A DNA stretch of 35,216 nt, taken from assembly GCA_028820595.1 (NCBI GenBank), contig JAPPIP010000124.1:1-35216 (forward strand). The letters run 5' to 3'. Each line of letters starts with the position of its first letter. The stretch's first letter is position 1. This document shows positions 14,319 through 35,216 of the stretch, in pieces. Source of the DNA: Nitrososphaerota archaeon. Lineage in GTDB: Archaea > Thermoproteota > Nitrososphaeria > Nitrososphaerales > Nitrosopumilaceae. The notes beneath the pieces were generated by a model. That model had not been told where the DNA came from. It searched no databases and was given only the letters and a program-made list of their open reading frames with translations. The position numbers were made by a program, and so were the translations under genes.

Positions 14319-14402
14319 GCGGGGATCGCCTAGCCCGGTAGGGCGTGGGATTGCTAATCCCATGTTCGAAAGAACTCGGGGGTTCAAATCCCCCTCCCCG
14401 CG
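14319..14402 (+). tRNA. tRNA-Ser(GCU)
   Basis: Acceptor GCGGGGA/TCCCCGC, anticodon arm TGGGA-TTGCTAA-TCCCA (GCT), variable arm TGTTCGAAAGAACTC, T arm GGGGG-TTCAAAT-CCCCC, discriminator G. Confidence 0.95.
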
Positions 14403-14403
14403 C
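14388..14403 (+). repeat. attL core: ATCCCCCTCCCCGCGC (tRNA-Ser 3' end)
   Basis: 16-bp perfect direct match with 32272..32287; tRNA 3' end adjacent to an integrase gene. Confidence 0.85.
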
Positions 14404-14451: not shown

Positions 14452-15630
14452 ATGGACGCGCAGATGCCAAAGACGCTCGACACGGAGTGCGAGTCGGTCC
14501 GGCAGTTCCTCAAGGGGTTTCACAGCGAGGCCACAAAGGAGTCGTACTCGAAAAAGCTCTCCCAGTTCCTGCACCGGTGCGGCATGACGCCGGACCAGCT
14601 GCTCGCCGGGGCGCGGGGCAGCCCGGCGTCGGTGCAGCGGCTCATCATAGACTATGTCGAGGAGCGCAGAAAAAAAGTGTCCGGTTCTACGATAAACCAG
14701 ACCGTCGTGGCGCTAAAGCACTTTTTTGAGATGAACGACGCGGAGGACGCCATATCGTGGAAAAAGATAGCAAAGATAATGCCGCGCGTCCGCAAGACCG
14801 GCAGCGACCGCGCCCCGACCATCCAGGAGATAAGGCAGATGATGGAGTCCGCGGACACCCGGATCAAGTGCATCATCCTGACGTGCGCCAGCTCCGGGAT
14901 AAGGGTGGGCGCGTTTGAGGGCATGCTCTGGGGGGACGTGACCCCGGTGGCAGGTACGGACGGCGGGGGCGTCAGGGCCGCGCGCATCGTGGCGTACAGG
15001 GGATCCGCGGAGCAGTACGTCACGTTCGTGACGCCGGAGTGCTACGAGATGCTGCTGAGATACCGTACGATGCGCGAGGAGGCAGGCGAGAGGGTGACCG
15101 ACGCGTCGCCGCTCATGCGCGACGCCTGGGACTCTCACCCGTACCGCAAGGCCGGGGAGAAAAAGGATCCAGCAGTGGCCACGCCGCTTGCCCCAAAAAC
15201 CATATCCAACATGATGGGCAAGTTTCTCAAAAGGATCAACATGCGGAACAAGCGGCACGCCGACGCGGCGGCAGGGCACGAGTTTAAGCAGATCCACGGG
15301 TTCCGCAAGTACTTCAAGACCAACGCCGAGCGGACCATGAAGACCATCGACGTGGAGAAGCTGATGGGGCACGCGGAGAACTATTACAAGCCGTCGGAGG
15401 AGTATCTGCTTGGGCAGTATGTCGCGGCGGTGCCGAACCTGACCATATCAGAAGAGGCCGAGCTCCGGAGCACAATCGAAAGGCAGGCCGCAATAAGCGA
15501 CAGAAAGGTGGGGGAGATCGAGCGGGAGAACGAGGATCTGCACGAGCGCCTTGCCAAGCTTGAGAGCAGCTACGCGTCGGTGCGGGAGATACTTGAGAAC
15601 GTCCTGCTCTCAAAGACCGGGGGCCGCTAG
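14452..15630 (+). CDS. Tyrosine recombinase/integrase
   Basis: 392 aa; catalytic pattern R (SSGIRVGAFEGMLW), HGFRKYFKT, LMGHAENYYKPSEEYL; C-terminal coiled coil. Confidence 0.92.
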   Translation: MDAQMPKTLDTECESVRQFLKGFHSEATKESYSKKLSQFLHRCGMTPDQLLAGARGSPASVQRLIIDYVEERRKKVSGSTINQTVVALKHFFEMNDAEDAISWKKIAKIMPRVRKTGSDRAPTIQEIRQMMESADTRIKCIILTCASSGIRVGAFEGMLWGDVTPVAGTDGGGVRAARIVAYRGSAEQYVTFVTPECYEMLLRYRTMREEAGERVTDASPLMRDAWDSHPYRKAGEKKDPAVATPLAPKTISNMMGKFLKRINMRNKRHADAAAGHEFKQIHGFRKYFKTNAERTMKTIDVEKLMGHAENYYKPSEEYLLGQYVAAVPNLTISEEAELRSTIERQAAISDRKVGEIERENEDLHERLAKLESSYASVREILENVLLSKTGGR

Positions 15631-16164: not shown

Positions 16165-16210
16165 GTTACCCGCAAACTTTCATAGAACTCTATGAAAGTT
16201 TGCGGGTAAC
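16165..16210. repeat. Perfect palindrome A1, 22-bp arms, 2-nt spacer
   Basis: GTTACCCGCAAACTTTCATAGA-AC-TCTATGAAAGTTTGCGGGTAAC. Confidence 0.95.
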
Positions 16211-16378
16211 TGCCGCGGCCGGAGCCGCCGCACACGCACGGGCAGGAAATCCGACAGTAGGCGCCCCGTACGCTTCCGGCCCTAGCGCCGGCACGCGGGC
16301 GGCGGGCCTGCCGCATGCCCGCGGGCGCCTGCGCAGGACTCATGGACGCGGAACCGGCCCTCCGTGACAGGCGTACCT

Positions 16379-16412
16379 GTCAAAGGTGACAAAGAAATCT
16401 TTGTTTGTACGT
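16379..16412. repeat. Degenerate copy of palindrome B
   Basis: GTCAAAGGTGACAAAGAAATCTTTGTTTGTACGT; left arm matches 17124.., right arm diverged. Confidence 0.6.
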
Positions 16413-16589
16413 TTGCCGCCGTCCGTTCCGGTCTGCCCGTAGTCCGGCCGACGAGGAGGGGGGCCATGCAGCAGACGGAAGACGGCGCCTAGCAGAAGGG
16501 GTCGGCACCTCCGTCCATCCACCGCCCGGGCAGCGTCACGTACGGTTCCAGGGCCCAAGGGTGCGGCAACATGGCCTGTGCGCGCGGCA

Positions 16590-16635
16590 GTTACCCGCAA
16601 ACTGTCATAAATTTTTATGACAGATTGCGCGCATC
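16590..16635. repeat. Partly decayed palindrome A2
   Basis: GTTACCCGCAAACTGTCATAAA-TT-TTTATGACAGATTGCGCGC; inner arms pair with one mismatch, outer arms degraded. Confidence 0.85.
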
Positions 16636-16811
16636 TGCCACGGCCAGCGGCGCCGCACGCACACGGACAGGAAGTCCGGCGACGGGCGCCTAGGTGTCTC
16701 CGGCCCTAGTCGGCGCACGCACGGCGGGCCTGCCGACGCCCGCGGGAGGCAGGACGGGCCGACGGGACCGGGGGCGCAGCGCGTGCCAGGAGGCAGTGGC
16801 TACCGCCGCCA

Positions 16812-16853
16812 TACCCGCAAACAATCATAGAGCTCTATGATTGTTTGCGGGTA
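16812..16853. repeat. Perfect palindrome A3, 21-bp arms, no spacer
   Basis: TACCCGCAAACAATCATAGAG|CTCTATGATTGTTTGCGGGTA. Confidence 0.95.
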
Positions 16854-16860
16854 ACTGCCG

Positions 16861-16951
16861 TACACACTCAGGTCGATTGAGACGTTGTGCCTAAAATTTC
16901 AGAACTCAGAGCACATTCAGGCATGAGTTCCGAATCGACCTGAGGGTGTAC
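16861..16951. mobile_element. ~91-bp MITE-like insertion with 18-bp TIRs and 8-9-bp target duplication
   Basis: TIRs TACACACTCAGGTCGATT (16861-16878) and AATCGACCTGAGGGTGTA (16933-16950), one mismatch; flanked by TAACTGCCG at 16852-16860 and 16952-16960. Confidence 0.65.
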
Positions 16952-17123
16952 TAACTGCCGCATGCCCGCGGCACCGCACACGGACAGGAAACCGGCGGTG
17001 AGGGCCCCGCGTGCTTCAGGCTCTGACTGATACGCGGGCGGCGGGCCTGCCGCATGCCCGCGGGCGCCTGCGCAGGCCGCCGCAGGGTACGGAACCGGAC
17101 ACTCTCCCGTGACAGGCGCAACG

Positions 17124-17159
17124 GTCAAAGGTGACAAAGAAATCTTTGTCACCTTTGAC
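17124..17159. repeat. Perfect palindrome B1, 17-bp arms, 2-nt spacer
   Basis: GTCAAAGGTGACAAAGA-AA-TCTTTGTCACCTTTGAC. Confidence 0.95.
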
Positions 17160-17366
17160 ACCTGCCGGCGCCAAGCGGCGCGCCTAGCCCCTTGGCGTCG
17201 GCCGCGGGCATGAGCCAGACCCTGCGAGCAAGAACACCCAGATTTTCCCAAGATTTGCGCGTGCGGCCCGGTCCATGCTTGATTCGCACATGACGGGCAC
17301 GCTGACGACCCGACCGGACCGCCCGCCCTTGCACGTCGTGAAAAACCCGCCTTTTATACATCCCGT

Positions 17367-18215
17367 GTGCATGATGGCATGCTAAGGGTGGGGCTTGACA
17401 TCGGGACCGGCTTTGTAAAGTGCGTCTCGGATCACGGGGCCGTCCGGTTCCCGTCGCTGTACGTCAAAAGGACGCACGGGGACTGGGCCGACGCGGACTC
17501 CGAGGCCATCGGGGAGAGGGCGGCCGGGATGCTGCACACTGCGGGGGCCGCCACCGTGCGGCCCGTCGTGCGCGGGAGGCCCGACCCCAGGTACCAGAAG
17601 CAGGTGGAGATGCTGATCCGGGAGGCCGTGTCTAGGGTCAGGGTCGCGGCGGGCCGCGCCGCGGACTGTAATGAAAAGGCCAGGATGGCCGTGGGCCTGC
17701 CGTACGAGGCCTCAGACTGCCGGGAATCCATATCCAAGATGGTCAAAAGGTGCGTCCCCGCCGACCGGTGCGACGTGGTGGCCCAGGCAGTCGGGACGCT
17801 GGTTGACATGGACAAGGGCACCGGCATGGTGGTATCCATCGGCCAGGGAACCAGCGAGATCGTGGTTATAGAGGACAACCAGGTGATCGACGGGGAGAGC
17901 TCCCGGTGGGCCTCGGAGTTCATCACCCGAAAGATAGGCAAGTTTGCGCACCTGGACACGGACGCGCTGCACCGGCGCCGGGAGACGTGCAAGAGGTACG
18001 CCAAGGTGCTTGCGGCAAACCTCGCAGACGAGATAACGGACATGTCCGCGGGATACGGCCACGCGTACGATATCATACTCTCCGGCGGCGGGTTGCTCAT
18101 CCCGGGCGTGCGCGACGAGCTGGAGTCGAGGCTCAAGAAGAGGTTCAGGATCAGCGTGCCGGCCGACCCCGTCATGAGCAACGCGACGGGCCTCTACAAG
18201 CTACTGGTGGAGTGA
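17367..18215 (+). CDS. Actin-like ATPase (ParM/archaeal actin-like family)
   Basis: 282 aa; phosphate-1 VGLDIGTGFVKCV, phosphate-2 VVSIGQGTSEIVVIED, adenosine motif DIILSGGGLLIPGV. Confidence 0.82.
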   Translation: MHDGMLRVGLDIGTGFVKCVSDHGAVRFPSLYVKRTHGDWADADSEAIGERAAGMLHTAGAATVRPVVRGRPDPRYQKQVEMLIREAVSRVRVAAGRAADCNEKARMAVGLPYEASDCRESISKMVKRCVPADRCDVVAQAVGTLVDMDKGTGMVVSIGQGTSEIVVIEDNQVIDGESSRWASEFITRKIGKFAHLDTDALHRRRETCKRYAKVLAANLADEITDMSAGYGHAYDIILSGGGLLIPGVRDELESRLKKRFRISVPADPVMSNATGLYKLLVE

Positions 18216-18246
18216 CTGCTGCGATGTATCCGGAATACGGGAGGGC

Positions 18247-21200
18247 GTGCGGCTGATGGGCTCGAGGCGCTGGCGCCTGGCCAACCGCAAAAAGCCCGAG
18301 GGGCAGCTGGGAAAGACGAGGCATTTTCTTGCCTCCACGGCCGAGGACGGCAGGCTGGCCGCCTGTTCTATCTCGATACCGATTAAGATGGACGAGAAGG
18401 CGGCCATACTGGCGGCAGGCGACCTTGCCGGCACCCGCACGCGCAGCTTCGAGGTGTGGTGGGACGCGGCGGACAAGAGGATGGAGTTCGTACTGGCCTC
18501 GGACAGGGGGGACCTGGACGCCTACAAGCAGGCGTTCCTCAACATGTACCCCAACGCGGCGTTCTCCGCAATGGAGGAAACGGAGCCGGGCTGGTTTGAC
18601 GCGGCGCGGCCGGACTGCCAGATATTTGACGTGGGCACGTACCACGGCCACTACTCGTCGGTCTTTGACAGAGCCAGGGCGCACCGCCTCATGACCCGGC
18701 TGGCGCGCACCGTGCAGCTGTCAAGGCACGCCTGGATACAGTTCGTCTTCCGGCGCCACCCCTTTGCCTCCTTTCTGCGCAACCACGTGACCCGGCTCGA
18801 CAACAGGAACCTCGAGATCGGCCGCGGCAACTACCTCAGCACGGCCGAGCTCCTGACGCTCTCGGACAAAAAGCCCCACGAGCACCCCGAGGCCGGGTAC
18901 GACTTTGCCAACAACTACGCGGGCCTCCAGAAGCACGCCACGCTCAAGATGCAGTCCGCGCAGGTCATGATGAGCATCCGGGGCGTCATGGCATGCGAGC
19001 GCGAGATCGACCTCAACTTTGACGAGATAGAGTCCCTGCCGGTCGAGAACATATTCTCGGGGCACGAGCACCTGACAAAGTTCCGGTACAGGCACCGGGA
19101 CTTCTGGGACGAGAAAAAGCCCGGCCAGGTGGAGGTCAGGATAACTGACGGCGGCGACGGCGGCAGGCGCTACCCGCGGATGGACGTGTTCGGGCGCAGG
19201 CTGCTGCCGGACCCGGACAGGCTGCTCGGCAGGGCCCTAGGGCGGTACTTTGACAAGGGCCTGCTCGGCGGGTACCGTAACCGCGACCCGCTGCCGTTCC
19301 TCATACTGAACCTTTCTGAGATGCCGCTGTTCGTGCATTTGCCGGACCCCGTCACCACCCCGAATGCAAGGGCCACCCGGGGCGTGACGATCCCGTCGGA
19401 GCCGTCCCAGAAGGCGGGCTCGCCCCTGGGGTTCTTCCGTCCCGGGCGGGACGGGCCGCGGTGGGGCGCCACGGCGCCCTCCAAGGACGCGGACGCGGCC
19501 GTGATATCGCCGGCGGACCTCGCCACCCACGTATACGCGGTCGGCGCGTCGGGCTCGGGCAAGACCTCGCTTGTCAGGGTCATCGCAAAGCACCTGGAGG
19601 CGTGGAATGAGAACGAAACCATGCGCAACGCGTTCATCTACGTCGACCCGAAGGGGGACGACTCGCACAAGTTCGTCAGGCAGTGCGCGGCCGCCTCCCT
19701 GTCGGAGGGGCGCGTACACTTTCTGGACCCGCAGCAGACCAAGTTTTCGATAAACCCGCTCGAGCTGCCCGAGCACTCGCCGTGGGAGCGCGAGGAGGTA
19801 GTGTCCAGGCACGTCGGCTACTTCATGAAGACCATCGAGGAGTGGTACCAGCAGTCGGCAAGCTACGTGCAGATGGAGCGCATTTTCCGCGCCCTGCTGT
19901 TCTACATATATGTGAAACACGACGCCCCCACCTTCCTTGACATACACCACATCATCCTCAGGCTGCAGGACGCGGGGCAGGACGCCATGCCGGAGATCAT
20001 CCGGGCGTACGGCGCGCCCGAGCCGGAGATGAGGCAGGCGCTCGACAGCATCGCCTCCTTGAAGGGCGATGCGTTCATGCCGCTGCTCAACCGCATAGAG
20101 CAGTTCGCGACCGACCCCGTGCTCAGGCGCATGTTCTCGGTGAGACGGGGCACGGTGGACTTTGCCGAGCTCACGAGGCCGGGGCACCAGACGATAGTCA
20201 GGATATCGCCGCTGAACATCCCCCACCACGTGCAGCCGCTCGCCATGCAGGCGTTCATACTGAAGCTGTGGTTTGCAATCCAGGAGCGCGCCAACCGCAC
20301 GCCCGACGAGTCGGAGCGCACCCAGGTGGTGCTGGCGCTCGACGAGTTCCAGATTGTCAAGGATCTGCAGGTGCTGCAGCTGATGCTCGAGCAGGCAAGG
20401 TCGCTGGGGCTCGGGCTCGTGCTGGCCCACCAGACCACCGAGCAGATAAGCGACAAGCAGCTGGGGCTCATCACCGGGAACTCTGGGACGCAGCTGGTGG
20501 GCAGGGTGAACGGCAAGGACGCGGCCCGCATGGCGCAGATCTGGGACCCGCAGTTCCAGAGGGAGCTGGGGCAGCAGCTCTCGAGCCAGGAGTACTTTCA
20601 CTGGACGATCCGCGAAAAGGCGCCGCCCGGGCAGGAGCAGTCCCCGCCCGCCCAGTTCTGGCTTGCCAGGCCGCCGGAAATGGTGGTTGCGGACGCCGAA
20701 TACGACAGGTACGTCAGGGGGCAGCTGGCCAAATACGGCGCCGGCATCGTGGGCCCAAACGCCATGGCGCAGGCGGCCCGCGAGAGGAGCAGATGGCTTG
20801 AGAGCATAACAGTCGAGCTCCCGCCCAGGCTGGAGTGGGGAATCATGTGCCAGCTGCTCAGAAACGGGGAGATGCAGCAGGGGCAGCTTGCGGACCGGCT
20901 GGAGGTGCAGAACCGCGACGAGGTCGCCGCCGCCCTCCGGGGCATGGAGGACAAAGGGCTGGTCGGGCGCGCAGGCACGGTGCGCACATCTCCGTATACG
21001 CTGTCAGAAAAGGCGGCCCGGACGTACCTTGGGTTTGACCACACGGAGGTGGGCTCGGCGCCGGACGTTGCGGAGGTGGCGCAAAAGGCGGTCGCTGCAT
21101 ACCTCAAGCGCGGCTTGTTCGTGACCATGGCGTCGCAGCGCATCAAAAAGGGCGCCGACCGGACCGACCTGGTCGCGTACGACTACACCAAGGAGATCCC

Positions 21201-21396
21201 GATATCCGTAGAGATCGAGTCGGTAAGCGAGGTCCAGAGCCACCCAGAGCACGTCAGGTACAACATGACAAAGTGGGCCAAGATGGGCTTTGCCGAGTGT
21301 CACGTCTGGTCCAAGAGCCCTAGGATAAAGGACATCAGGGACCGGCTGGACGTGGAGCAAAAAAAGAGGGTCTTTGTGATGGTCATCTCATCCTGA
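18247..21396 (+). CDS. HerA/VirB4-TraG-like ATPase with wHTH and possible PD-(D/E)XK-like C-terminal domain
   Basis: 1049 aa; Walker A GASGSGKTSLV, Walker B VVLALDEFQIV, LAHQTTEQIS, wHTH-like WGIMCQLLRNGEMQQGQLADRL, C-terminal DRTDLVAYDY...ISVEIES. Confidence 0.82.
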   Translation: MRLMGSRRWRLANRKKPEGQLGKTRHFLASTAEDGRLAACSISIPIKMDEKAAILAAGDLAGTRTRSFEVWWDAADKRMEFVLASDRGDLDAYKQAFLNMYPNAAFSAMEETEPGWFDAARPDCQIFDVGTYHGHYSSVFDRARAHRLMTRLARTVQLSRHAWIQFVFRRHPFASFLRNHVTRLDNRNLEIGRGNYLSTAELLTLSDKKPHEHPEAGYDFANNYAGLQKHATLKMQSAQVMMSIRGVMACEREIDLNFDEIESLPVENIFSGHEHLTKFRYRHRDFWDEKKPGQVEVRITDGGDGGRRYPRMDVFGRRLLPDPDRLLGRALGRYFDKGLLGGYRNRDPLPFLILNLSEMPLFVHLPDPVTTPNARATRGVTIPSEPSQKAGSPLGFFRPGRDGPRWGATAPSKDADAAVISPADLATHVYAVGASGSGKTSLVRVIAKHLEAWNENETMRNAFIYVDPKGDDSHKFVRQCAAASLSEGRVHFLDPQQTKFSINPLELPEHSPWEREEVVSRHVGYFMKTIEEWYQQSASYVQMERIFRALLFYIYVKHDAPTFLDIHHIILRLQDAGQDAMPEIIRAYGAPEPEMRQALDSIASLKGDAFMPLLNRIEQFATDPVLRRMFSVRRGTVDFAELTRPGHQTIVRISPLNIPHHVQPLAMQAFILKLWFAIQERANRTPDESERTQVVLALDEFQIVKDLQVLQLMLEQARSLGLGLVLAHQTTEQISDKQLGLITGNSGTQLVGRVNGKDAARMAQIWDPQFQRELGQQLSSQEYFHWTIREKAPPGQEQSPPAQFWLARPPEMVVADAEYDRYVRGQLAKYGAGIVGPNAMAQAARERSRWLESITVELPPRLEWGIMCQLLRNGEMQQGQLADRLEVQNRDEVAAALRGMEDKGLVGRAGTVRTSPYTLSEKAARTYLGFDHTEVGSAPDVAEVAQKAVAAYLKRGLFVTMASQRIKKGADRTDLVAYDYTKEIPISVEIESVSEVQSHPEHVRYNMTKWAKMGFAECHVWSKSPRIKDIRDRLDVEQKKRVFVMVISS

Positions 21397-21751
21397 GCTT
21401 TTCCATCCGGCTGCCGCTGCTGCCGCTGCTGCCGCTGCTGCCGCCGCCATCACCGGGCCCGTCCCTGGCCAGGGCCTTGGCAAGGGCGTCCATGTAGCCG
21501 GCACCGTCATCCTCCTCCTCCCGTGGCCCGTTGTACCTGTCAAGCGCGGCAGAGTCCCTGTCGGCCTCCGCCACGTCCCTCTTGGTGATGCCCGACTCGA
21601 CCGGCTTGATGATGACCTTGTTCTTTGACACGGCGAACCTCACGTACTGGTTCTTGCGCATTCCGAGCGCGTGGGCTATCTGCGCCGGTATGGTCACCAT
21701 GTACGAGCCCTGCCTGAACTGCACCCTTCTCTGGATGTCTTCCATGTCCAT
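21383..21751 (-). CDS. AbrB/SpoVT-type DNA-binding protein with Ser-Gly linker tail
   Basis: MDMEDIQRRVQFRQGSYMVTIPAQIAHALGMRKNQYVRFAVSKNKVIIKPVE; start chosen at 21751 because the upstream part of the ORF is the iteron translation. Confidence 0.8.
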   Translation of the reverse strand: MDMEDIQRRVQFRQGSYMVTIPAQIAHALGMRKNQYVRFAVSKNKVIIKPVESGITKRDVAEADRDSAALDRYNGPREEEDDGAGYMDALAKALARDGPGDGGGSSGSSGSSGSRMEKLRMR

Positions 21752-21792
21752 GCAGTACGGGCCCGCGTATGCATAAAAGGCGGGAAAAGCAC

Positions 21793-21942
21793 GCATGATC
21801 TGCATGAGCCGCCGGTTTCTACATGCATGATCCGCATGTACGGCATGCATGATCTGCACTTTCGGGGTTTTCGGCCATGCATGATCCGCATGTACGGCAT
21901 GCATGATCCGCATGTACGGCATGCATGATCCGCATGCGGGCA
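21793..21942. repeat. Iteron-like array, 22-bp unit ATGCATGATCCGCATGTACGGC
   Basis: Exact copies at 21823-21844, 21877-21898 and 21899-21920; diverged copies near 21793, at 21845 and at 21921. Confidence 0.92.
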
Positions 21943-22253: not shown

Positions 22254-22291
22254 GGTCAAAACAATCAAAGATTTCTTTGATTGTTTTGACC
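22254..22291. repeat. Perfect palindrome B2, 18-bp arms, 2-nt spacer
   Basis: GGTCAAAACAATCAAAGA-TT-TCTTTGATTGTTTTGACC. Confidence 0.95.
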
Positions 22292-22475: not shown

Positions 22476-23131
22476 CTATTTCACATACGCTTCCAGTCCC
22501 GTCTTTGTTGGAGACCAGTTCTTTGGCTCAAACTCTTTTGGCAATTGAGATACCAGACGGTCGGATTCCGCCCCCACGTACGCCAGCCTCTCTATGATGG
22601 CGCGCACATCCTTGCCGGACACACCCTGAAGGGGATAATTCTCAATCCCGCTCTCCTTGTCCACCGTATGGCCATACCGGTCTACGAACCACCCAAGCGG
22701 CGTCCTACCGTTGACGCGGTACTCGCATACTGGCAAGTTTTCGTACACTGGCACATCGTCGATTATCAGGACGTGTTGGTTCTGGCCGCCTGTGATGTTC
22801 TTGGCCGCGTCTTTCTTCTGTCTCCCCCACCTGATCCTGCGCGGCGAGTCAGGTATGACGTTTACGGGCTTGCCCAGATCGTACCGCTTGCAGGTCTCGT
22901 ATGACAGGTGTAGATCCGCCAGCTCCTTGCCTGTCTTTGAGAACGCCCAAAAGTCAGGGGCCATCGGGATGTGGGGGAGTTCACGCGTGAGGTTGTTTGC
23001 GTATTTCTTACGGTATCCGGGGGAGTGTAACAGCCCGTACACGTAATAGAAGACATCCTCTTTGGTAATCGCATTGTCGCTGTACTGCGCTTTGTATTCC
23101 CCTAGGGCATAATCCGTGATGTTGTCTACCA

Positions 23132-23135
<4 letters not shown>
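22476..23135 (-). CDS. C-terminal (putative target-recognition) part of single-chain restriction-modification enzyme as a separate ORF
   Basis: ORF continues to 23255, but likely start MMVDNITDYALGEYKAQY... at 23135 overlaps the upstream stop (ATGA); contains FYYVYGLLHSPGYRKKYANNL...DFWAFSKTGKELADLHLSYE, typical of this family. Confidence 0.8.
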
Positions 23136-27337
<4,202 letters not shown>

Positions 27338-32324: not shown

Positions 32325-32756
32325 TCACCCAAACTTGACAGGTATGCCGCGACGCTCAAATTCCGCAGTCACAGAATCATAAACCGAGCGCGCTGCAGAC
32401 TCGGCCCCGACCGCATCCTCGCGGGTGGGCTCGGGCCAGTCACCCGGATATCTGGCGTTAACTGTCCAAGCGGTCAGCTCGTACAGATCCTTGTGTTCGT
32501 TTTTTACGGCCCAGCCTTCCGGAAGCATGTCAAGCAGAGTATCCAGATCATGGGTACGTGGAAAGCGAATTTCTTCCAGGACAAGCGCGGCTTTTATGGC
32601 CTTTTCTGCAGTCTGTTGGCACAGCCAGCAAGCATGCGCGGGTGCGCTCGGTTCGGAATTTATCAAGCGAAGCGCCAATGCAACGTCACTGTTGGAATAT
32701 CGCAGCCAGCGCAGCGCTACATTTTCTACCTTGGAATTATCCTTTTTCATAGACAA
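32325..32756 (-). CDS. HEPN-domain protein (putative toxin)
   Basis: 143 aa; ALRWLRYSNSDVALALRLIN...ACWLCQQTAEKAIKAALVLEEIRFPRTHDLDTLLDML. Confidence 0.85.
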   Translation of the reverse strand: MSMKKDNSKVENVALRWLRYSNSDVALALRLINSEPSAPAHACWLCQQTAEKAIKAALVLEEIRFPRTHDLDTLLDMLPEGWAVKNEHKDLYELTAWTVNARYPGDWPEPTREDAVGAESAARSVYDSVTAEFERRGIPVKFG

Positions 32757-33054
32757 TCTTTCCTTCTCGAAGAGCCTCGTAGGCTATGGTCCCCACCACG
32801 TCCCCCTCCCGTTCGATCTCGCCGGGGGTGACCGCTATGATGTCTTTGCTGACTGGCACGTCCCTCAGCGAACGCAATATTTCTACCGTAGTCCGGTGTT
32901 TGTTTGGAATGTGGTTCAGCACGACCATCAGATCCACGTCACTTGACTCGTTTGTATCGCCGCGCGCCTGGGAGCCGAAGAGTATGACGCAGTTTGGCTG
33001 AAATCGCTTGACTATGCGGTCAACCATGACGGATATGAGTTCAGCGGTAGCCAT
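32737..33054 (-). CDS. MNT-type minimal nucleotidyltransferase (putative antitoxin)
   Basis: 105 aa; CVILFGSQARGDTNESSDVDLMVVL (GSxxRG..SDxDL); overlaps the HEPN gene by 20 nt. Confidence 0.9.
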   Translation of the reverse strand: MATAELISVMVDRIVKRFQPNCVILFGSQARGDTNESSDVDLMVVLNHIPNKHRTTVEILRSLRDVPVSKDIIAVTPGEIEREGDVVGTIAYEALREGKIVYEKG

Positions 33055-34387: not shown

Positions 34388-34489
34388 CAGTAACCATATG
34401 TGGCAGGCAAGGCACGACAAGTTCGGAAATCAGATGACACGGGCCGTGATCGGCGCAGGGCCAAAATGCAAACAAACAGATTAGGGATC
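34388..34489 (+). repeat. Left 102-bp perfect inverted repeat
   Basis: CAGTAACCATATGTGGCAGGCAAGG...AACAGATTAGGGATC; exact reverse complement of 34985..35086. Confidence 0.93.
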
Positions 34490-34969
34490 CTTCACGATCC
34501 TGCCCCTGTACCTGATCAACTGCTTGTCGCCCACTGTCTTTTCGTCGGGCACATAGCACCCGGCAATATATCCGCCCCGGAGCAGGTCGGCCAGTACGGC
34601 CGCGTCCACCCTGTCGGTCTTCTTTTTTGATTCCGCAATCCGCTTGGTCGCAAGCGGGTTTGAGAGCATGACGTCCAGTCCCAGCTTGTCCGTGAGGAAC
34701 CTGTACATGCCGTACCACACGGAGGACGACTCCATCACGAATCTTGAGTCTGCCGGAAGCTTGGAGAACGCCCTTGCAACGGCCGCCCGGTTGCACTCCA
34801 CCCTCTTGTTCTGGAGGATCCTCCCGCCCGGATCCATCAGCGCCACCTGCATGAACTCCTTGTGCAGGTCAATCCCGACGAAGAGTTCCGGACTGCCGCC
34901 GGAGGCCTCCGTACAGACTGTCCCGACTGTCCGTGCCTTCTTCGCCCTGCCCGCACCGGCATCTTTCAT
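34481..34969 (-). pseudogene. Truncated IS110-family transposase (N-terminal DEDD domain only)
   Basis: MKDAGAG...ELFVGIDLHKEFMQVALM, FVMESSSVWYGMYRFL, KKTDRVDAAVLADLLRGG; ends at a stop inside the left inverted repeat, with no C-terminal Transposase_20-type region. Confidence 0.85.
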
Positions 34970-34984
34970 ATGTCCACTTTTTTC

Positions 34985-35086
34985 GATCCCTAATCTGTTT
35001 GTTTGCATTTTGGCCCTGCGCCGATCACGGCCCGTGTCATCTGATTTCCGAACTTGTCGTGCCTTGCCTGCCACATATGGTTACTG
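34985..35086 (-). repeat. Right 102-bp perfect inverted repeat
   Basis: GATCCCTAATCTGTTTG...CCACATATGGTTACTG; exact reverse complement of 34388..34489. Confidence 0.93.
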
Positions 35087-35216
35087 GACTAAAGCCAATC
35101 CTTATGAGCATGGGCATGACAGATGCATTCAGCAGCGAACTTGCCAACCTGAGAGGAATTGGGTTCTGTCAAGTTAACGAGTCCTAGATAGGGCGGCAAA
35201 ACGGATCTTCTCCGAA

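Follow-up and report, generated by a model that had tools for sequence, protein, structure and literature searches.

A candidate actin-based partition module with an AbrB-fold adaptor in a thaumarchaeal integrative element

We analysed a stretch of 35,216 nucleotides (the window), contig JAPPIP010000124.1 (C39 below) of a Nitrososphaerota genome of ~2.0 Mb in 140 contigs, and found in it an integrated element that carries an actin-like gene, a gene for an AbrB-fold DNA-binding protein and an array of 22-bp repeats (iterons). We consider it probable that these form a type II-like (ParM-ParR-parC) partition module, with the AbrB-fold protein as adaptor. The actin-like protein would polymerise with nucleotide and so push or pull DNA copies apart, and the AbrB-fold protein, bound to the iterons that precede its own gene, would both form the partition complex and repress itself. 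Its C-terminal tail would dock on the actin filament in the way known for the ParR C-terminus of plasmid R1, and the module as a whole would prevent loss of the element while it is excised or replicating. The coordinates of all features are given in Table 1.

Looking at the product of the actin-like gene, the best Pfam match was MreB_Mbl (E-value 6.5e-11), with weak matches to FtsA, ALP_N and EutJ, and the best PHROG match was family 691, annotated as partition protein (9.6e-12). The initial annotation, made from the letters alone, had proposed an actin-like ATPase here and structure prediction as a check on it. The AlphaFold2 model reached a predicted local distance difference test (pLDDT) score of 88 and a predicted template modelling (pTM) score of 0.87, and its top Foldseek matches were MreB, MamK and actin. 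A gene for an actin-fold nucleoside triphosphatase, one mark of a type II (ParMRC) system, is therefore present by Pfam, PHROG, AlphaFold2 and Foldseek alike. In an alignment of 13 homologues the nucleotide-site motifs GLDIGTGFVKCV, QAVGTL, IGQGTTEI and SGGGILIPG were kept, and the Gln that we read as the counterpart of actin Gln137 was invariant. The TATA-like box and the conserved start together suggest a leaderless transcript. Family members with a named source came from Nitrosopumilaceae, Nitrosotalea and other Thaumarchaeota, and no homologue was found in viral contigs or in PLSDB plasmids.

The initial annotation had also set a lack of recurrence of the actin-ATPase pairing as grounds for giving up its proposal. 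The two genes are in fact neighbours in about ten thaumarchaeal loci (contigs C39, C114, C59 and C138, three contigs of G021, G026, and two contigs of the metagenome-assembled genome (MAG) p16x60bins.31), with a gap of 5.7 kb at one of them, L127. The actin gene is also paired with an AbrB gene at about ten loci that have no ATPase (L117, L119, L124, L125, L142-L145, L147), so that actin and its small partner form a tighter unit than actin and ATPase. One of these loci, L119 (CATQGX010000001.1), is filed under an uncultured gammaproteobacterium and is probably misbinned, since it holds a thaumarchaeal actin-AbrB pair. We surveyed the partners at 34 actin loci taken from genome contigs. An AbrB protein was encoded near the actin gene at 17 loci and an unrelated protein of ~95 aa (MLTKSERRF...), whose gene starts at or just past the actin stop, at 13. 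A small gene for a possible DNA-binding adaptor, the second mark of a type II system, was thus nearby in nearly all loci that had sequence on both sides. In the tree each partner type fell in two separate actin clades, some of the supports being modest; if the small protein is an adaptor, such a swap of partner with the motor kept is to be expected. A divergent actin-like gene (35% identity) was also seen in chromosomal-looking surroundings in three related genomes (L057, L058/L137, L059).

The AbrB protein of the window matched MazE/AbrB in Pfam (2.7e-5, above the cut-off in the whole-genome search), as had been predicted, and has an acidic/Gly-Ser linker ahead of its C-terminal tail. It is thus assigned to AbrB/MazE and not to the ribbon-helix-helix fold of ParR. 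Ten AbrB proteins linked to this type of ATPase or integrase share one plan, an AbrB domain, then a linker that varies (acidic or Gly/Ser) and finally a tail such as SRLEKLKMK, and similar termini (PLDKLRL, MLDGLRM, MEGFRM, SLADLQY) were found at actin loci without the ATPase. The motif [LMI][DEA]x[LFM] occurred in the last 10 residues of 15 of the 17 actin-linked AbrB proteins, in none of 15 other AbrB proteins and in 3.9% of open reading frames (ORFs), and the stricter [LMI][DE]x[LFM] in 10 of the 17 (background 2.2%); these figures are descriptive, the motif having been set after the data were seen and tested on the related proteins that defined it.

The array of 22-bp iterons described in the initial annotation was recovered as 2.8 perfect copies plus degenerate ones. 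Each of the ten tailed AbrB genes of ATPase-linked type has a tandem array at its promoter, whereas among the 287 other genes of these loci 17 have one; the arrays adjoin the AbrB TATA box on its upstream side. Their periods mostly fall close to multiples of 11 bp (22, 33, 44, 55). At L142-L145, where the ATPase is missing, the AbrB genes have paired AAAACCATATGGTTTT-like sites at the same place. The repeat units mostly differ from element to element, as would follow if elements sharing a cell each required a partition specificity of their own; this genome has four actin copies, and distinct repeats would allow their independent partition. We regard the iterons, and not the palindromes discussed below, as the likely centromere. 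A separate family of 13-bp tandem repeats (GGCTCGGCGTCTT-like) was observed beyond the AbrB iterons in the G021 elements (L051 6330-6394, L052 32-88, L053 9745-9832, L040 1-83, L054 9017-9196), and in contig C54 of G021 it lies between AbrB and actin.

The initial annotation had compared a field of palindromes just upstream of the actin-like gene with the repeat centromere of type II plasmid partition. The field itself is real: it holds four near-perfect palindromes, whereas at the same threshold none arose in five mononucleotide shuffles of the window. The arms of the type A copies at 16165 and 16812 differ at matching positions, so that the palindromic symmetry is kept. Members of the family were also found in contigs C124, C138, C51, C15 and C59 as well as in two further MAGs, and Rfam gave only sub-threshold matches. 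We abandoned the palindromes as the leading centromere candidate on their distribution. They lie just 3' of the integrase gene in C39, C124, C138 and L122, and they occur in elements of this same genome that have no actin gene (C124, C51, C15); C124 combines palindromes, integrase, AbrB and iterons and lacks both actin and ATPase. The iterons, for their part, go with the tailed AbrB gene. The palindromes may rather be a cis site for integration, excision or replication of the element.

The large gene between actin and AbrB had been labelled HerA/VirB4-like. An ATPase is indeed encoded there, with conserved Walker A (GASGSGKTS) and Walker B (LALDEF(Q)) motifs, while the HerA label fits less well: the best Pfam match was TrwB_AAD_bind (1.5e-7; 31.1 bits against a cut-off of 20.5), DUF87/HerA being weaker (1.2e-3). 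The VirB4-like ATPase of contig C51 in the same genome, which adjoins TFIIB/ParB-like genes, reads LLDEAWR where the window protein reads LALDEFQ, and the latter was therefore called VirD4-like. By its motifs and matches it is best read as a VirD4/TraG-like coupling protein rather than HerA proper. A winged-helix region is present as well, and the protein ends in an alpha/beta domain of strong conservation (RTDLVAY...IEIES), which could be a degenerate nuclease-like domain. Its AlphaFold2 model was poor (pLDDT 62, pTM 0.42) and too weak for fold assignment; Sulfolobus HerA was the only Foldseek match below 0.001. Three paralogues in this genome have the gene broken into two ORFs around residue 400-415 by a stop or frameshift, the halves being otherwise open (L045 3425-6657, L046 11449-14658, L047 15190-18411).

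The ATPase gene follows the actin stop by 31 bp (from GTG 18247) or 40 bp (from ATG 18256), and not by the few bp first reported. We rejected it as a part of the partition core on its distribution. It is missing from the actin-AbrB loci listed above, and the ATPases of G013, G018, G010 and C92 have neither an actin neighbour nor a tailed AbrB gene with tandem iterons, which makes it a neighbour from the transfer machinery, where it would serve as the VirD4-like coupling protein of the elements' conjugation apparatus. The original idea of a segregation or transfer system thus survives in that actin, adaptor and iterons lie on an element with a transfer ATPase, and fails in that the module does not always include this ATPase. 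By analogy with R1 ParM, which binds TraD and TraC (PMC4949242), a functional link is nevertheless plausible: the close linkage of the two genes suggests co-expression and perhaps contact.

Several observations weigh against a partition module. The Asp of the MreB phosphate-2 motif is replaced by Ser or Asn in 13 of 13 homologues, which may alter nucleotide hydrolysis. Compared with MreB the protein is ~50-55 residues shorter, with a gap between query residues 194 and 205 that we take to be the position of MreB subdomain IIB, and filament contacts may therefore differ as well; AlfA also does without subdomain IIB and is similarly short. The divergent group L057, L058/L137 and L059 has no recognisable partner, and the tail-motif counts are descriptive. 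Contig C124 has a tailed AbrB gene and iterons without actin, and C83 has the ATPase, a tailed AbrB gene and iterons without actin; the latter looks like a remnant, a ThiF gene standing where actin would be expected. Finally, iterons before the gene of a DNA-binding protein can be a plain operator.

Two of the alternatives give transfer a larger place. A combined partition-transfer machine, in which AbrB on its iterons would tie the DNA to the actin filament and also, by way of the operon linkage, to the VirD4-like ATPase, and in which the filament would deliver double-stranded DNA to the channel of a relaxase-less archaeal conjugation, appears to us unlikely; the AbrB fold would in that case be a new class of actin adaptor, elsewhere swapped for the ~95-aa one. 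We judge it unlikely that the module acts in transfer only, the AbrB-bound iterons marking the origin of transfer (as TraM or TrwA do at oriT), the tail recruiting the ATPase and actin helping to assemble or position the channel. Actin, ATPase and AbrB do adjoin in C39, C114, C59, the three G021 contigs and G026, in G021 and G026 the cassette is preceded by a prepilin-peptidase-family gene immediately upstream, with TFIIB/ParB-like genes nearby, and C83 retains everything but actin. However, this reading leaves aside the actin-AbrB pairs that have no ATPase, as well as the actin-less ATPases of G013, G018, G010 and C92, which lack tailed AbrB and tandem iterons.

The other two alternatives take the module apart. 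If AbrB were an ordinary autoregulator and the iterons its operator, actin would have a separate role in positioning or replication, as AlpC has in phage CGP3, and its linkage to AbrB would reflect mere gene clustering. The iterons do immediately precede the AbrB TATA box, and AbrB proteins are often regulators or antitoxins, but the actin-AbrB association holds across families, the C-terminal tail is not found in other AbrB proteins, another small protein takes the place of AbrB beside actin in other clades, and a simple operator would hardly need arrays as long as 60-200 bp; we find this quite improbable. Highly improbable, in our view, is a non-filament ASKHA ATPase of the PilM/FtsA/EutJ kind working in a pilus-like conjugation apparatus. 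It would fit the replaced phosphate-2 Asp, the weak matches to EutJ and FtsA and the prepilin-peptidase and pilin-like genes upstream at several loci, whereas the best sequence and fold matches are to polymerising actins (MreB, MamK, actin) and at some loci (L117, L125) no pilus gene was recognised near actin.

As for the setting, the genes are chromosomal up to the tRNA-Ser, and the integrase starts 49 bp downstream of it; the integrated element therefore begins there, and this tRNA is its probable integration site. Two further contigs of the genome, C128 and C138, hold close copies of the integrase. The tRNA-Ser 3' end (attachment site) was not found a second time in the window or in the other loci retrieved, which places the far end of the element beyond the contig, which stops at 35216, or means that it was lost. 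Among the window ORFs scanned there was no VirB4, TFIIB or prepilin peptidase.

Table 1. Features of the element and its probable integration site in the window.
Feature	Coordinates	Strand	Remarks
tRNA-Ser(GCT)	14319..14403	+	ARAGORN; Rfam tRNA 57.9 bits
Tyrosine integrase	14452..15630	+	PHROG 1/216 integrase 5e-12/1.5e-8; Pfam Phage_integrase 6.5e-4
Small conserved ORF, 61 aa	15774..15959	+	3' of integrase; homologue at same place in C138; no Pfam or PHROG match
Palindrome type A, perfect, 46 bp, arms 22	16165..16210		Core identical to copy in C124
Palindrome type A, imperfect, arms 15, 1 mismatch	16596..16629		
Palindrome type A, perfect, 42 bp, arms 21	16812..16853		Identical copy in C51
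Palindrome type B (GTCAAAGGTGACAAAGA...), arms 17	17124..17159		Half copy at 16378-16404
TATA-like box of actin gene (ttttata)	17352..17358	+	~25 bp from ATG 17379; read from sequence
Actin-like ATPase	17379..18215	+	~278 aa from conserved start; ORF opens GTG 17367; proposed partition motor
FtsK/HerA-class ATPase, VirD4/TraG-like	18256..21396	+	ORF opens GTG 18247; ATG 18256 favoured by conservation
AbrB/MazE-fold DNA-binding protein	21383..21751	-	Convergent to ATPase gene; tail SRMEKLRMR; proposed ParR-like adaptor; ORF open to 21943 through iterons
Iteron array, 22-bp unit GGATCATGCATGCCGTACATGC (AbrB strand)	21789..21941		Directly upstream of AbrB TATA box; proposed centromere
Further perfect palindrome, arms 18	22254..22291		5 kb from field

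Beyond these features, the window holds a Type ISP restriction-modification gene (22476-27337, minus strand) split over two frames, with a (CT)21 repeat (23286-23327) inside the coding region near the frame switch; judging from this arrangement, the gene may be phase-variable by slippage. A HEPN and nucleotidyltransferase (MNT) gene pair (32325-33054, minus strand) shows a typical toxin-antitoxin arrangement, and an IS110-family transposase gene (34481-35074, minus strand) lies at the contig end, its ORF start being also present in inverted form at 34400-34630.

Actin-based partition in integrated elements of archaea was not reported in any paper that we found in the open-access literature searched. 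If our reading is right, it adds an AbrB-fold class to the ParR-like adaptors, explains how such elements persist in slow-growing ammonia oxidisers, offers a compact archaeal actin for study and makes a physical coupling of partition and conjugation testable in a relaxase-free system. The thaumarchaeal integrative conjugative elements (ICEs) described by Krupovic et al. (2019, PMC6563490) have no relaxase found in them, and double-stranded transfer was suggested; the main text does not mention actin or AbrB. They share the host group, and VirD4/TraG ATPase, TFIIB, ParB-like and prepilin peptidase genes occur in cassette-bearing relatives of our element. Of the combination of VirB4, VirD4, TFIIB and prepilin peptidase in one element, the window has, besides its integrase, the VirD4-like gene; VirB4, TFIIB and prepilin peptidase are absent from the sequenced part of the element, and the relatives in G021 and G026 carry several of these genes.

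Actin-type partition on an integrative conjugative element is known from the bacterial SXT/R391 ICEs, which use srpMRC (PMC4489591); there the SrpR adaptor is ParR-related and no operon with a coupling protein is known. AlpAC of the Corynebacterium phage CGP3 (PMC5539076) likewise joins an actin-like protein and a DNA-binding adaptor on an integrated element, but both it and AlfA of the Bacillus plasmid pLS32 are bacterial and have other adaptors, and neither was closely related in sequence in the searches made. ParM proteins have a closed beta-barrel subdomain (PMC12270681). Our module resembles ParMRC of R1 and other type II systems in its actin-fold motor, in the small DNA-binding protein nearby with its linker-separated C-terminal tail, and in the repeat array in the promoter region, whose repeats differ between elements. 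It departs from them in its archaeal host, in the replaced phosphate-2 Asp and the ~55 residues gone at the place of MreB subdomain IIB, and in its adaptor, which has an AbrB/MazE instead of a ribbon-helix-helix fold and is encoded by a convergent gene, with the coupling ATPase often lying between it and actin.

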